Source: Planctomycetota bacterium
Lineage (GTDB): Bacteria > Planctomycetota > Planctomycetia > Pirellulales > Thermoguttaceae
DNA: 56,394 nt
Reading direction: 5' to 3'
Assembly: GCA_029550925.1 (NCBI GenBank)
Contig: JAKPGL010000212.1
Location: forward strand, 1-56,394
Shown here piece after piece: positions 34,647 through 39,690 of this stretch. A program made the translations under genes and the position numbers. Position 1 is the first letter of the stretch. The number at the start of each line of letters is the position of its first letter. The notes beneath the pieces were generated by a model. That model saw only the letters and a program-made list of their open reading frames with translations, had not been told where the DNA came from and did no database searches.

Positions 34647-36125
34647 TTAGAATCCTCCATGTTCTAGGGCGATCTGCGCCGCTTGGTAGCCGCTCCGTAC
34701 TGCCCCCTCCATCGTGGCTGGCCAGCCGGTGGCGGTCCAATCCCCGGCCAAAGCGAGGTTCAGGATAGAGGTTTTTTGCCCTGGGCGGATTTTCTCGACG
34801 CCTGGCCGGGGAGAAAAAACCGCCTCGACCATGTGGACTCGCCGATGGGCGAGCAATTTCGCCTCTTTGGTCGCCGGGAAAATCTCGGCAAGTTCCCGAA
34901 GGACTTCTTCCACCGTTTGAGGGATCGACGATCTGGGCAGGGCGTGAGTCCCACTGACAAGCACCTGATAGTAGTAACCCCGGCCTCCTATTTTCGGGGG
35001 GCCGATTCGTGGGTTGGAACCATCGCTGGAGCTATTCGTCTGGCAGTTTTCCTCCCTAAGTGGGGCTGGGTAGGCGGCATGAAATCGCTCTGGCAAATCC
35101 GCTTTCCCTCCGGAGGAGGCATCTCCTCCAGAACGTTCTCCCCGGGGGCCTGCAAAGACCCATTGGATGGATTTGCCGACAACCGCCGATTGAGGCAACT
35201 CGGTAATGGGCCGATCCAGCCACAGGTGCCAGGTTACGATCGAACCGGGTTCTAACAGGGCGGCTTGAGCAAGGTTCGGGATGGTTTCCACCAGGTTCGG
35301 GGCCAGCAGGCCGGCCGCCCGCCGCCAGGGAACCGCCAAAATATAAAAGTCGAACCTCCTTCGCGTTCCGTCGTTCAACACAAGGCCCTGCACCTCTCGG
35401 CGATCGCCGTCGATAAGCCGAACTGATGTGCGCCGATGGACCAGCACCCCTTCTTGAGCGAGCTGCCGACCCAAATGCTCGTCCAGCAGTTGGCCCCAGG
35501 CCATCGTGGGCCGCAGCAAGTGATAAGCGTCTCGACTGGTGAGAAATCCTTCGACAAACACCTTTCGCGTCGTTGAGAAGGCCGTTCGTTCCGGCAGATC
35601 GGCCAAGGCGCTCAGGACCACCGGAGTCCAAAACTTCTCAACGGCCGAACTTGTCTGCCCCTGTTGCCGAAGCCAATCGCCGAAACTAAGGTCCTCCGGC
35701 TGCGACGCGGGTCGCATAAGCCGAAGGAATCCCCGCAGAGTCTTCAGCCGATCCTCCCATGAGAGAAAACCCAGTCGCAAAAAGGCCGGTAGAAGGTGCA
35801 ACGGGGCCGGCAGCCAGCAGACGCCCTGGAGGCGGCAGGTTCGGCCCTGGGGATCCAGAAAATAGAGTTCCGGATACCGCCTGAGGAATCGGTCCAGACC
35901 GGTCTGTCGGCAGAAATGGAGCATCTGCCGACAGCAGCCCATCAGTACATGCTGGCCGAAGTCGATCCACTGGCCCGCCGTGGGTTCCCAGAACGCACCC
36001 GCCCGGCCTCCCAGCCGATCCCGTCTTTCAAACAGCTCGACCGGAAGGCCGCGTTCGGCCAGGGCCGCCGCCGCACTCAACCCGGCTAATCCGCCGCCAA
36101 TGATCGCAATCGAAGAAGAAGCCAT
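34647..36125 (-). CDS. hpnE: Hydroxysqualene dehydroxylase HpnE (FAD-dependent)
   Basis: 492 residues. The N-terminal dinucleotide fold is AIIGGGLAGLSAAAALAERG, followed by FERRDRLGGRAGAF (FAD-binding amine oxidase family). The C-terminal NLALAGDWTATGWPATMEG is characteristic of HpnE. It catalyses the last step of the HpnC-HpnD-HpnE route from farnesyl diphosphate to squalene. A hydrophilic insertion of about 55 residues (RSGGDASSGGKADLPERF region) interrupts the fold before YYYQVLVSG. It is separated from HpnD by the zinc-ribbon gene but lies on the same strand. Confidence 0.9.
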   Translation of the reverse strand: MASSSIAIIGGGLAGLSAAAALAERGLPVELFERRDRLGGRAGAFWEPTAGQWIDFGQHVLMGCCRQMLHFCRQTGLDRFLRRYPELYFLDPQGRTCRLQGVCWLPAPLHLLPAFLRLGFLSWEDRLKTLRGFLRLMRPASQPEDLSFGDWLRQQGQTSSAVEKFWTPVVLSALADLPERTAFSTTRKVFVEGFLTSRDAYHLLRPTMAWGQLLDEHLGRQLAQEGVLVHRRTSVRLIDGDRREVQGLVLNDGTRRRFDFYILAVPWRRAAGLLAPNLVETIPNLAQAALLEPGSIVTWHLWLDRPITELPQSAVVGKSIQWVFAGPRGERSGGDASSGGKADLPERFHAAYPAPLREENCQTNSSSDGSNPRIGPPKIGGRGYYYQVLVSGTHALPRSSIPQTVEEVLRELAEIFPATKEAKLLAHRRVHMVEAVFSPRPGVEKIRPGQKTSILNLALAGDWTATGWPATMEGAVRSGYQAAQIALEHGGF

Positions 36126-36519: not shown

Positions 36520-37158
36520 CTAAGGAGAGGAAGAATTTTTCCTGGCATAGTATTCCACCAGTCTGCCGAAAAAGCCGACCATAGAGCCTAGATACATCCC
36601 AGCGATTGCCCCCGCAAGAAGCATCTCCAAGCTGATTTCTTTTTTAGTAAGGATAGTCTCCCGAAATTCCGGAGGCACGGGGTCGGAAGATAACGTGGAA
36701 ACTTCTAAAAAAAGGAAAACCACCGCAACTCCTAAAAGCGAACCTATGAACGCATGTAAAAAAATCAAACCATCGAAAGTTTTTCCTGTGAGTTGCACAA
36801 GACGATACGGCGCATAGCATCCCCAAAAAGTACAAATAGCTATGACGCCCAAAAAATAGAACGGCAGAAAACTTATGTACAATGGAATCCAATAGGAGGA
36901 AAGACACCACCCCAACACACTCCCTAGGATCAGATGCCCTAGTCCCGCCAACGAGACGACTACCGACGCCGTCCTGGGCGAGCTCGTCGGCAGAATCCGT
37001 TGTTGTATCGGCAAGGGTCGGAAGACCAACGGAGAAATGGGCGGCGGTTGGGGCGGCTCCTCCAAAGCCGTCATCACTGTTTTACACTTGGCACACCGAT
37101 ACTGGCCTGGCGTTGCTACTTGGTATGTTGTTCCACATTCTGGGCATCGAACAACCAT
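36520..37158 (-). CDS. Zinc-ribbon membrane protein of unknown function
   Basis: 212 residues. The N-terminal zinc ribbon has CPECGTTYQV (Cys5/Cys8) and RCAKCKTVM (Cys22/Cys25), as in MJ0042-type fingers. A Pro-rich linker follows, then four predicted membrane helices (about 65-85, 95-115, 130-152 and 178-200). AAGGAG lies seven bases before the start. It lies between hpnD and hpnE on the same strand, with gaps of about 340 and 395 bases, so its operon membership is uncertain. Confidence 0.7.
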   Translation of the reverse strand: MVVRCPECGTTYQVATPGQYRCAKCKTVMTALEEPPQPPPISPLVFRPLPIQQRILPTSSPRTASVVVSLAGLGHLILGSVLGWCLSSYWIPLYISFLPFYFLGVIAICTFWGCYAPYRLVQLTGKTFDGLIFLHAFIGSLLGVAVVFLFLEVSTLSSDPVPPEFRETILTKKEISLEMLLAGAIAGMYLGSMVGFFGRLVEYYARKNSSSP

Positions 37159-37498: not shown

Positions 37499-38572
37499 CT
37501 ATTCTCTTTTCCCCAGCAGCCCGCGGCGGGAGGGCCGCACGGTCCATCGGAGGGCTAAGGCCAGTTTTTCCCAACCGTTCAGGCGGACCCGTTCGACAAG
37601 CACTCTGTGCGGCTTTTGGGCGATCCGGTCTAGCAGTCGGCGGTAGGTTTCATACATCATCCCGAAGATACGTCGGCCCGAGGGGTCCAAATAGTCCCAC
37701 AGGTCCGCGGCCTGCCGATAAAACATCTCCGCCCGCTCCGCTTGCCGCCGGATGAGCCGATCAAATCGCTCGTCCGCCTCCGCTGGGGGAAAATCTTCGA
37801 CGGAATAACCGAGGGCGGCCAGTTCCTCCGCAGGAACATACACCCGGCCCATCCGGGCGTCTTCTTTCAAATCGCGGAGGATGTTCGTCAGTTGGAACGC
37901 CAATCCACAGGCGACAGCCGGTGAGGCGGCTTCTCGACAATGGGAACCCCAGATGCACAAACAGGCCAACCCCACCGCCGACGCCACCCGCCGACAGTAA
38001 AGGGCCAACTGCTCGAACGTCTCGTACCGGACCGGCTCTAAATCCATCCCGACGCCCTCCAGCACCGCCTCCAGATACACCGGCGGGATGTGAAACCGCC
38101 GGACCGTATCGACCAGAGCGGGAAGAATCGCTCGCTCTGCGGCGCCGACCCCTCCGTCAGAATCCTCCCACGGTTCGGGGGATGGGCGGTCGGACGGTTC
38201 GACGGTTTCGACGGTTGCCGGTGGAAAAAAGCGGATATTTGTCGTCGGCGATTCTAACTCAGACTGCCCCCTCGACAAAAAGTCCTTCCAGACCAAGCCA
38301 ACGGTTTCAAAACCGCCAAAAGCAGGAACCCTCCCTTGCTGGAGAGCCGTCTCCAGCGCCTGCCGCCAGCGGTGGAGGGCCTGTCGGCGTCGGAAGGCCG
38401 GCGACGGCTGGTCGCCCAGATCGTCCGTAATCCGTAAAAAGGCGTACAGGGCTTCCATAGCCTGTCGTTTCGGTTGGGGCAAAAGCCAGAGACAGCGGGT
38501 AAAATTCGACCCCGATCGCCGCACCACGCGCCGACACGCTGCATAACTGGCATTTAGTCCTTCTTCTGTCAT
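37499..38572 (-). CDS. hpnD: Squalene/phytoene synthase, probably presqualene diphosphate synthase HpnD
   Basis: 357 residues. Prenyl-diphosphate-binding aspartate motifs: RITDDLGD near residue 47-54 and NILRDLKEDARMGRVYVP near 240-256. RRSGSNFTRCLWLLP is typical of squalene/phytoene synthases. The enzyme condenses two farnesyl diphosphates; assignment to HpnD rather than HpnC or a phytoene synthase rests on HpnE being nearby. A Pro/Glu/Ser-rich insertion of about 50 residues at about 105-150 is unusual. It begins 26 bases after the stop of the enolase-superfamily gene, so both are probably in one operon. No clear Shine-Dalgarno. Confidence 0.82.
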   Translation of the reverse strand: MTEEGLNASYAACRRVVRRSGSNFTRCLWLLPQPKRQAMEALYAFLRITDDLGDQPSPAFRRRQALHRWRQALETALQQGRVPAFGGFETVGLVWKDFLSRGQSELESPTTNIRFFPPATVETVEPSDRPSPEPWEDSDGGVGAAERAILPALVDTVRRFHIPPVYLEAVLEGVGMDLEPVRYETFEQLALYCRRVASAVGLACLCIWGSHCREAASPAVACGLAFQLTNILRDLKEDARMGRVYVPAEELAALGYSVEDFPPAEADERFDRLIRRQAERAEMFYRQAADLWDYLDPSGRRIFGMMYETYRRLLDRIAQKPHRVLVERVRLNGWEKLALALRWTVRPSRRGLLGKRE

Positions 38573-38598: not shown

Positions 38599-39690
38599 TC
38601 AGCCGATCTGCAATTCTTCCAATTTCGCCAAGTCGATGTCGAGTCCCCAGCCAGGCAATTCCGGAACGGCGGCCATTCCTTCGACGATCTCCAATCCTTG
38701 GCAGAGGGGTTCACGACCGCCTTGATAGGCATAGGTCAAACACGGCTGATCCAAAAAGGAGACGGCGGCGATAAGATGCACCAAGGCCGCCAACCGAATC
38801 CCCACCCCCCCGGCCTCATAAAGCAGAACCGGTAGTCCAGCGGCTTCGGCGACGGCCGCCGCTTTTCGGAGCACAGTCAGGCCGCCTAAAAGGTCCACAT
38901 CCAGCACCAAAAACGCCCCCGCCCCGCTCCGCACCACGCCAAACACCTGAACAAGACTTCCCAACATCCGACATAGTCCGACCGGTACACTGGTCTGCCG
39001 TGCAAAACTAGCCAGCGCATAGACCTCCGAACTGGAGAGCGGATCGACGACCCCTTGAACCGCCTCGTATTCCAAAGCGGCGCACAGGTCTTGGGCGACC
39101 GGTTCGGAGTACAGGCCGGCGGCGTCCAAGAAAAGTCGGCTTCGCTCCCCAGCCGCTTCCCGAACCGCAGCCGCCCGCTGCACGTCCTCTTCCACCTGGC
39201 CCGTCGTAGGCAGAACCAACGTATGGAACCCTTGTTCTGCTAGTTCCCGGGCGAAAACCCCCAGGTTCTGGGCAGAGTCCAACCAGGGCAATCGGGCGCC
39301 CAAAGGCGCATAGCTCCGAAACCGCCCTCCCCATACATGGCATACCGGCTCGCCAAGACGCTTGCCGATCAGGTCCCAACAGGCCATCTCCACCGCCGAC
39401 CGTAATCCGGGCGGACGCAAAAAGTCCAGTGCGGAAAGCTCTTCGATATCGAAAGCGGAACGATCCACCAACACGGCGGCCAGGGCCTCTTGTCGGCTGG
39501 GCAACTCGGCTCGGGACCATAAAGCAGGGCCTTCCCCCCAACCTTGCTGGCCGTCCGGACCGGTCAACTGAATCACCAAACTCCGGACCTCTTTTCCTCC
39601 CCGCCCCTCCAGGTTTTCCACCAGGTAGCAATCCACCTCCCGAATCTTAAGCGGCGGAGAAGCCCGAACATGGCGCGATTTGATATTCAT
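38599..39690 (-). CDS. Enolase-superfamily (mandelate racemase/muconate cycloisomerase-like) protein with degenerate active site
   Basis: 363 residues from the ATG at 39690 (GGGGAGG about 10 bases upstream); a longer frame from 39771 is less likely. The N-terminal capping domain and (beta/alpha) barrel pattern are visible: LRSAVEMACWDLIGKRLGEP, then the barrel. The catalytic KxK of the second strand is replaced (GFHTLVLPTTG). Metal ligand 1 (LFLDAAGLYS) is present, ligand 2 is Asp (VVDPL), and ligand 3 is missing (VPVGLCRMLG, where homologues have an acidic residue). The last strand (FLVLDVDLLGGL) keeps its Asp. Enzyme activity is therefore doubtful. The gene sits 26 bases upstream of hpnD. 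Confidence 0.75.
   Translation of the reverse strand: MNIKSRHVRASPPLKIREVDCYLVENLEGRGGKEVRSLVIQLTGPDGQQGWGEGPALWSRAELPSRQEALAAVLVDRSAFDIEELSALDFLRPPGLRSAVEMACWDLIGKRLGEPVCHVWGGRFRSYAPLGARLPWLDSAQNLGVFARELAEQGFHTLVLPTTGQVEEDVQRAAAVREAAGERSRLFLDAAGLYSEPVAQDLCAALEYEAVQGVVDPLSSSEVYALASFARQTSVPVGLCRMLGSLVQVFGVVRSGAGAFLVLDVDLLGGLTVLRKAAAVAEAAGLPVLLYEAGGVGIRLAALVHLIAAVSFLDQPCLTYAYQGGREPLCQGLEIVEGMAAVPELPGWGLDIDLAKLEELQIG

Follow-up and report, generated by a model that had tools for sequence, protein, structure and literature searches.

In the classic picture of the enolase superfamily, new chemistries evolve while the metal site and the catalytic bases stay fixed. What, then, might a member do once most of these residues are gone? 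The question is raised by a gene in a 56,394-nucleotide stretch of a planctomycete genome (family Thermoguttaceae, order Pirellulales; contig JAKPGL010000212.1; this whole stretch is called the window below), which lies beside a presqualene diphosphate synthase gene. A preliminary description, made from the DNA alone, had raised the possibility of a regulatory or structural pseudoenzyme in triterpenoid synthesis, or else of a new chemistry.

The 363-residue protein belongs to the enolase superfamily by sequence match and has its MR_MLE fold, a cap domain followed by a (beta/alpha)7-beta barrel, as the preliminary description had recognised from the reading frame and its fold signatures. Both Pfam domains score above their cut-offs (MR_MLE_C, 118.7 bits against 29.4; MR_MLE_N, 26 bits against 22). 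An AlphaFold2 model built from 17 aligned sequences reached a mean pLDDT of 90.5 and a pTM of 0.90. When superposed as the preliminary description had suggested, the model matched structures of muconate lactonizing enzyme (muconate cycloisomerase; PDB 3dgb, 1muc, 2pgw) over 344-349 residues, with Z-scores of 40.4-41.5 and rmsd values of 2.2-2.3. The whole fold is shared with that enzyme, but its catalytic lysines and two of its metal ligands are missing from the window protein. The closest named database match, 73% identical, is from a Thermoguttaceae bacterium. Coordinates of all features are collected in Table 1.

Table 1. Features of the putative pseudoenzyme gene (below, the pseudoenzyme gene), its product and its neighbours (window positions; for the CBS-domain-like genes, positions within the named loci)
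Feature	Coordinates	Strand	Basis
Putative enolase-superfamily pseudoenzyme CDS	38599..39690	minus	ATG start, 363 aa + stop; translation, Pfam, AlphaFold2 model
hpnD-like presqualene diphosphate synthase	37499..38572	minus	PF00494, 226 bits; best NCBIfam model HpnD, 240 bits, below cut-off 278.6
Zinc-ribbon (MJ0042-like) protein, between hpnD and hpnE	36520..37158	minus	Zinc-ribbon matches, all below cut-off
hpnE, hydroxysqualene dehydroxylase	34647..36125	minus	TIGR03467, 397 bits, cut-off 283.05
V159-L160-P161 codons at strand-2 KxK site	39208..39216	minus	Lys at either position in 0/56 clade members
D189, first metal-ligand Asp, kept	39124..39126	minus	Asp in 56/56 clade members and 20/20 KxK relatives
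V215 (ligand-2 Glu lost) and D216 (clade-invariant Asp)	39043..39048	minus	Alignment counts
R241 at third-ligand Glu site	38968..38970	minus	Arg in 41/56 clade members; Glu in 20/20 KxK relatives
D264, Asp at GG-5	38899..38901	minus	Asp in 45/56 and Glu in 5/56 clade members
Shortened 20s capping loop, residues 28-36	39583..39609	minus	Loop-length count; pLDDT <50 at 30-32
CBS-domain-like genes	L048:7646-8086, L053:3743-4183, L054:5574-6011, L212:5551-6060, L227:5912-6352		Pfam for L048 only; others by similar sequence

In the window the gene is separated by 26 nt from the hpnD-like gene downstream. The hpnD-like protein matches TIGR03465 as two stretches and scores below the cut-off, a pattern suggesting that roughly 65-70 residues are inserted ahead of residue 143. 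The zinc-ribbon protein is included here only as a member of the same gene row; it has hydrophobic stretches by eye, and the gene calls of two congeners have no gene at that place.

Homologues were gathered by searching 60 relatives, 396 genomes of the order and, for comparison, 392 of the phylum, after which the loci were fetched. Absence or presence of the strand-2 Lys pair divided the sequences into a clade of 56, one per genome and all from Pirellulales-type planctomycetes, the window included, and a comparison set of the 20 top-scoring mandelate-racemase-like planctomycete relatives that retain the KxK motif (L036, L213-L226 and L236-L240; similar proteins occur at L061-L071). The lysines of the 20 are therefore true by construction, but their Asp, Glu and Glu at the three metal ligands and their two His residues, found in 20 of 20, are independent of how the set was defined. 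The order search listed matches down to E 1e-45; fetching covered those scoring 261.8 bits or more and some of the weaker ones, and the rows for G772, G678, G728, G479, G478, G611, G596, G563, a second match in G629 and other lower rows were left unclassified. From the phylum search the loci of the best matches were fetched, and the site was inspected in L060-L087, among which one clade member was found (L060, the locus of genome G026).

A maximum-likelihood tree, built by a quick method from an alignment stripped of the columns of the Lys pair and of ligands 2 and 3, separated all 56 clade members from the other rows by a branch with an SH-aLRT support of 99. Rooting was arbitrary, on one KxK row; the 20 KxK rows formed one group with a support of 47, and long branches were flagged among the other rows. 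As rooted, it is other KxK paralogues that group with the clade, and we do not treat these 20 as its sister group. Two proteins of a KxK-intact group from the same order and class (L061, L070, L213-L226, L236-L240), L061 and L070, had no NCBIfam match above cut-off. Separately, a Pirellulales-type copy of the pseudoenzyme occurs in L114, a public record titled Candidatus Nealsonbacteria that is probably a mislabelled bin.

To locate the canonical residues, we aligned the window protein pairwise to solved relatives and to the KxK homologues. In P0001 numbering the KxK lysines fall on V159 and P161, the metal ligands on D189, V215 and R241, and the strand-7 His on Y291; the motifs quoted in the preliminary description, GFHTLVLPTTG from G154 and PVGLCRMLG from P236, are both present. 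Its statements that both strand-2 lysines are gone and that the first metal Asp is kept hold throughout the clade. The KxK base pair of catalytically competent MR/MLE subgroups is thus absent from every one of the 56 members, so its loss reflects neither chance nor sequencing error. A single lost metal ligand had also been described. The third ligand is indeed replaced, but the loss is not single, as the second has gone too: position 215 is Leu in 28 members, Ile in 19, Val in 8 and Phe in 1, against Glu in all 20 KxK relatives. Of the three acidic Mg2+ ligands on strands 3, 4 and 5, only the first Asp is kept throughout the clade. At position 241 Arg (41 members) is followed by Ala (6), Lys (2) and Leu (2), with Ile, Ser, Met, a gap and Glu (in L202) once each.

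All 20 KxK relatives have the strand-7 His, against one of 56 clade members (L037, at position 291); this His and the Glu at 241 in L202 are the exceptions to the clade's losses. The position next to ligand 2, the x of the canonical E-x-P, is an invariant Asp in the clade (D216, 56/56), whereas all 20 KxK relatives have Gln. D264, five residues before the GG, corresponds by alignment to Asp270 of mandelate racemase, and an Asp is found there in 19 of the 20 KxK relatives. The His-Asp dyad of mandelate racemase (strands 7 and 6) is therefore incomplete in the clade, with the Asp mostly kept and the His nearly always gone. In addition, the 20s capping loop falls short of that in the KxK relatives by about 10 residues. 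The distance from the I16 position to GWGE is 34 residues in most clade members (48 of the 55 that could be evaluated; range 32-37) but 44 in all 9 of the 20 KxK rows that could be evaluated, the remaining rows being cut by local alignment. The KxK relatives thus share with the clade the cap, the barrel and the Asp at GG-5, and differ in retaining Glu, Glu, His and His at the lost sites and in the longer loop.

Could this be an ordinary member of the superfamily, such as an o-succinylbenzoate synthase (OSBS) or a sugar-acid dehydratase, whose active site has simply been misaligned? The good overall superfamily match is what such an enzyme would give. However, no NCBIfam model reached its cut-off with the window protein; the four OSBS (MenC) models, whose cut-offs lie between 130.55 and 288, gave between 17.6 and 36.2 bits. 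MenC, a divergent member of the same superfamily, requires KxK and three ligands. The window genome has a separate MenC (L025, 212.1 bits against a cut-off of 200.65), on which ground we reject that identity for the pseudoenzyme, and also a galactonate dehydratase above its cut-off (L021, 355 against 311). Nor did we find a relocated base: across the barrel columns of 53 clade rows, no column had Lys in more than 43% of sequences, so the base has not moved elsewhere. Together these results make a misaligned ordinary enzyme scarcely credible. They also bear on the preliminary description, according to which its reading would fall either with the missing residues at other nearby positions or with an intact active site in the same genomic context. 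We looked for both, and found neither a relocated Lys nor, in the fetched loci of the 20 KxK relatives, any ispH or hpn gene (0/20).

A gene that has lost its catalytic residues might also be a decaying pseudogene or a neutral relic, and one relative, in G006, is listed with an in-frame TAG. To assess selection, we compared the window with two congeners by the Nei-Gojobori method. Omega was 0.14-0.17 for the pseudoenzyme gene and higher for both hpnE (0.21-0.27) and the hpnD-like gene (0.22-0.26), values that are approximate with dS at about 1 or more. The pseudoenzyme gene is under purifying selection. These omega values rule out neutral decay, and against a pseudogene there are also the long open frames, free of internal stops, of the other clade matches listed and the retention of the gene across several families of the order. 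We consider decay very improbable indeed.

If the protein is maintained by selection, where does that selection act? Conservation was compared in 53 of the 56 clade rows that passed a gap filter and in the KxK set, which amounts to about 9 effective sequences. In the KxK set, 19 barrel-mouth positions had a mean conservation rank of 0.82, and none of 5000 random draws was as high; in the clade the same positions had a mean rank of 0.46, against a null value of 0.50. Because we picked these positions manually at the model's strand ends, and because the KxK set is small in effective size, the result is indicative rather than exact. Conservation was gained at positions 18, 20, 62, 66, 67, 83 and 124 of the N-terminal domain and at 354 and 358 near the C-terminus, where the clade consensus reads D, E, E, R, R, E, Y, R and E, respectively. 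The window protein departs from that consensus at five of them, with partly similar residues (E18, D20, Q67, F124 and L354). Because conservation has left the pocket and risen in the cap domain, these results favour a function of the surface over a new use of the old pocket.

These results bear directly on the second proposal of the preliminary description. A new, metal-independent enzyme would use the Asp189, Asp216, Arg241 and Asp264 left in its barrel mouth to act on an isoprenoid or a sugar acid; the invariance of D189 and D216 across 56 of 56 members, together with Asp at 264 in 45 and Arg at 241 in 41, is what suggests it. However, mouth positions on strands 2 and 7 vary, Arg241 is missing in 15 of 56 members and Asp264 in 11, and the 20s cap loop is shortened. 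With a hand-chosen pocket no more conserved than random columns, this alternative is weakened and we regard it as improbable. The four polar residues, two invariant and two mostly conserved, could be remnants of a polar site or could form a new one. By contrast, the pseudoenzyme reading gains support from the clade-wide losses, the lack of a relocated Lys, the short 20s loop, the vanished pocket conservation and the purifying selection. From the sequences and the model, we predict that catalysis has very likely been lost in the clade.

Evidence on a possible partner comes from the gene neighbourhood. In 35 of the 56 clade loci, spread across several families, ispH, an essential isoprenoid-synthesis gene, lies directly upstream on the same strand (ispH, or LytB, was identified by Pfam and NCBIfam in L040, which was added to the count by hand, and by tblastn elsewhere). 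Ten of the 35 have a start-codon option that gives a 4-nt overlap with ispH; start options were unreadable in 4 of the 35 and implausible in one (L231). Early branches of the clade also carry the link, namely L033, at the first split as rooted, and L204, at the next fork, so ispH adjacency is likely to be ancestral. Genes for hpnC or other squalene-synthase-family proteins occur in 27 of the 56 loci, and 24 of these 27 have ispH next door. In those 24 loci, ispH and the pseudoenzyme gene are divergent from hpnC-hpnD(-hpnE).

The arrangement in the window differs from this pattern. The window genome has ispH and hpnC side by side and divergent on another contig, C96 (HpnC confirmed), apart from the pseudoenzyme contig. 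All three genomes of the window's genus have the pseudoenzyme gene near hpnD-hpnE and within about 2.4 kb of hpnD; in the two congeners it is on the hpnD-hpnE side at a distance of 2.0-2.4 kb, with an opposite-strand gene between in L037. The layout beside hpnD is a local rearrangement seen only in this genus. The preliminary description was right about the 26-nt gap to hpnD, but its statement that the gene starts the squalene cluster needs qualification, as hpnC lies elsewhere beside ispH. It had suggested checking whether orthologues share the losses and the neighbours: the losses recur throughout the clade, and the layout beside hpnD recurs within the genus. Any link to triterpenoid synthesis is indirect: ispH, of the MEP pathway, is the most frequent neighbour and probably the ancestral one, and the hpn operon lies across the divergent promoter.

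Does proximity to squalene genes reflect a dependence on squalene? Of 60 genomes, 28 carry the pseudoenzyme, 24 of them with and 4 without a PF00494 match, and 21 of the 32 genomes without the pseudoenzyme also have PF00494. The gene and PF00494 are associated in family f1 (21/3/6/7; Fisher p = 0.017) but not clearly over all 60 genomes (24, 4, 21, 11; p = 0.084), both values being uncorrected for phylogeny. The four genomes with the gene and no PF00494 match (G003, G009, G033 and G037, with stated completeness of 82, 87, 92 and 99%) weaken a strict dependence on squalene. Moreover, ispH also faces squalene synthase genes in some genomes that have no pseudoenzyme, G048 and G051 among them, so these genes may be nearby merely because ispH is.

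The same observations raise the alternative that the protein is a pseudoenzyme unconnected with isoprenoids, its gene being placed after ispH or another housekeeping gene for the sake of translational coupling and of expression level. Twenty-one of the 56 loci have no adjacent ispH, three of which (L032, L042 and L206) end at a contig edge. Elsewhere the upstream gene encodes a PALP-fold protein, thrC-like by our reading (L041, L229), purH (L205, L207), a DUF4340 protein (L035) or an S8 peptidase (L232). Packing is tight behind the non-ispH gene in L041, L229, L205, L207 and L035, with overlapping frames in L229, L205 and L035. In some of the loci without ispH we looked for a consistent alternative partner and saw no pattern; the neighbour in L211 has no Pfam match. 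Members behind such varied genes, the four genomes that have the protein and no detected PF00494 gene, and the loose association with PF00494 are all as expected if the protein is unrelated to isoprenoids. Against this stand the ispH neighbour in 35 of 56 loci, including several families and the early branches, and the window's genus, which holds the gene near hpnD in three of three genomes even though the window genome's ispH is on another contig. We therefore consider an unrelated role possible, if on the unlikely side.

The reading that best accommodates these results is that the protein serves isoprenoid supply without catalysis, as a scaffold or a regulatory partner made together with IspH, and to this we give a probability of about one half. 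The protein has kept the enolase-superfamily fold but lost the general bases (KxK and the strand-7 His), two of the three Mg ligands and a stretch of the capping loop. Arg241, which we take from the canonical geometry of the superfamily and the alignment to lie beside Asp189, would probably pair with this kept Asp and fill the old metal site. With selection acting on the cap domain instead of the pocket, the protein is most likely to act by contacting other proteins, and the gene neighbourhood points to IspH or its isoprenoid context as the most probable partner. Produced with IspH, it might tune or stabilise the last step of the MEP pathway, which feeds hpnC-hpnD-hpnE. A more specific version, in which the protein is a dedicated pseudoenzyme subunit of IspH in Pirellulales, with Arg in the metal's place, and couples IPP/DMAPP supply to the squalene operon, seems fairly unlikely as stated.

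There may be a precedent for such a partner within the superfamily. In Escherichia coli, according to PDB titles (4gyp, 4il0), the glucarate-dehydratase-related protein GlucDRP is a paralogue found in a heterotetramer with the dehydratase GlucD, and by analogy an enolase-superfamily paralogue can serve as a partner in a hetero-oligomer. GlucDRP's partner is its own paralogue, whereas the pseudoenzyme's neighbour, IspH, is an unrelated enzyme. A clade in which the fold is kept, the metal site and bases are mostly lost, conservation has moved to the cap and selection is strong is an unusual outcome for this superfamily, and offers a clean test case for the transition from enzyme to partner protein. 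If IspH is the partner, this would suggest that planctomycetes control their isoprenoid supply in a way so far undescribed. The clade appears to be new as a pseudoenzyme clade within the enolase superfamily: in a full-text literature search, judged from listings and with most subscription journals outside its scope, we recognised no paper describing it.

One further feature of the loci concerns the other flank of the gene. In 5 of the 26 stretches with gene calls, a small CBS-domain-like gene lies just downstream of the pseudoenzyme gene, in convergent orientation (Table 1).
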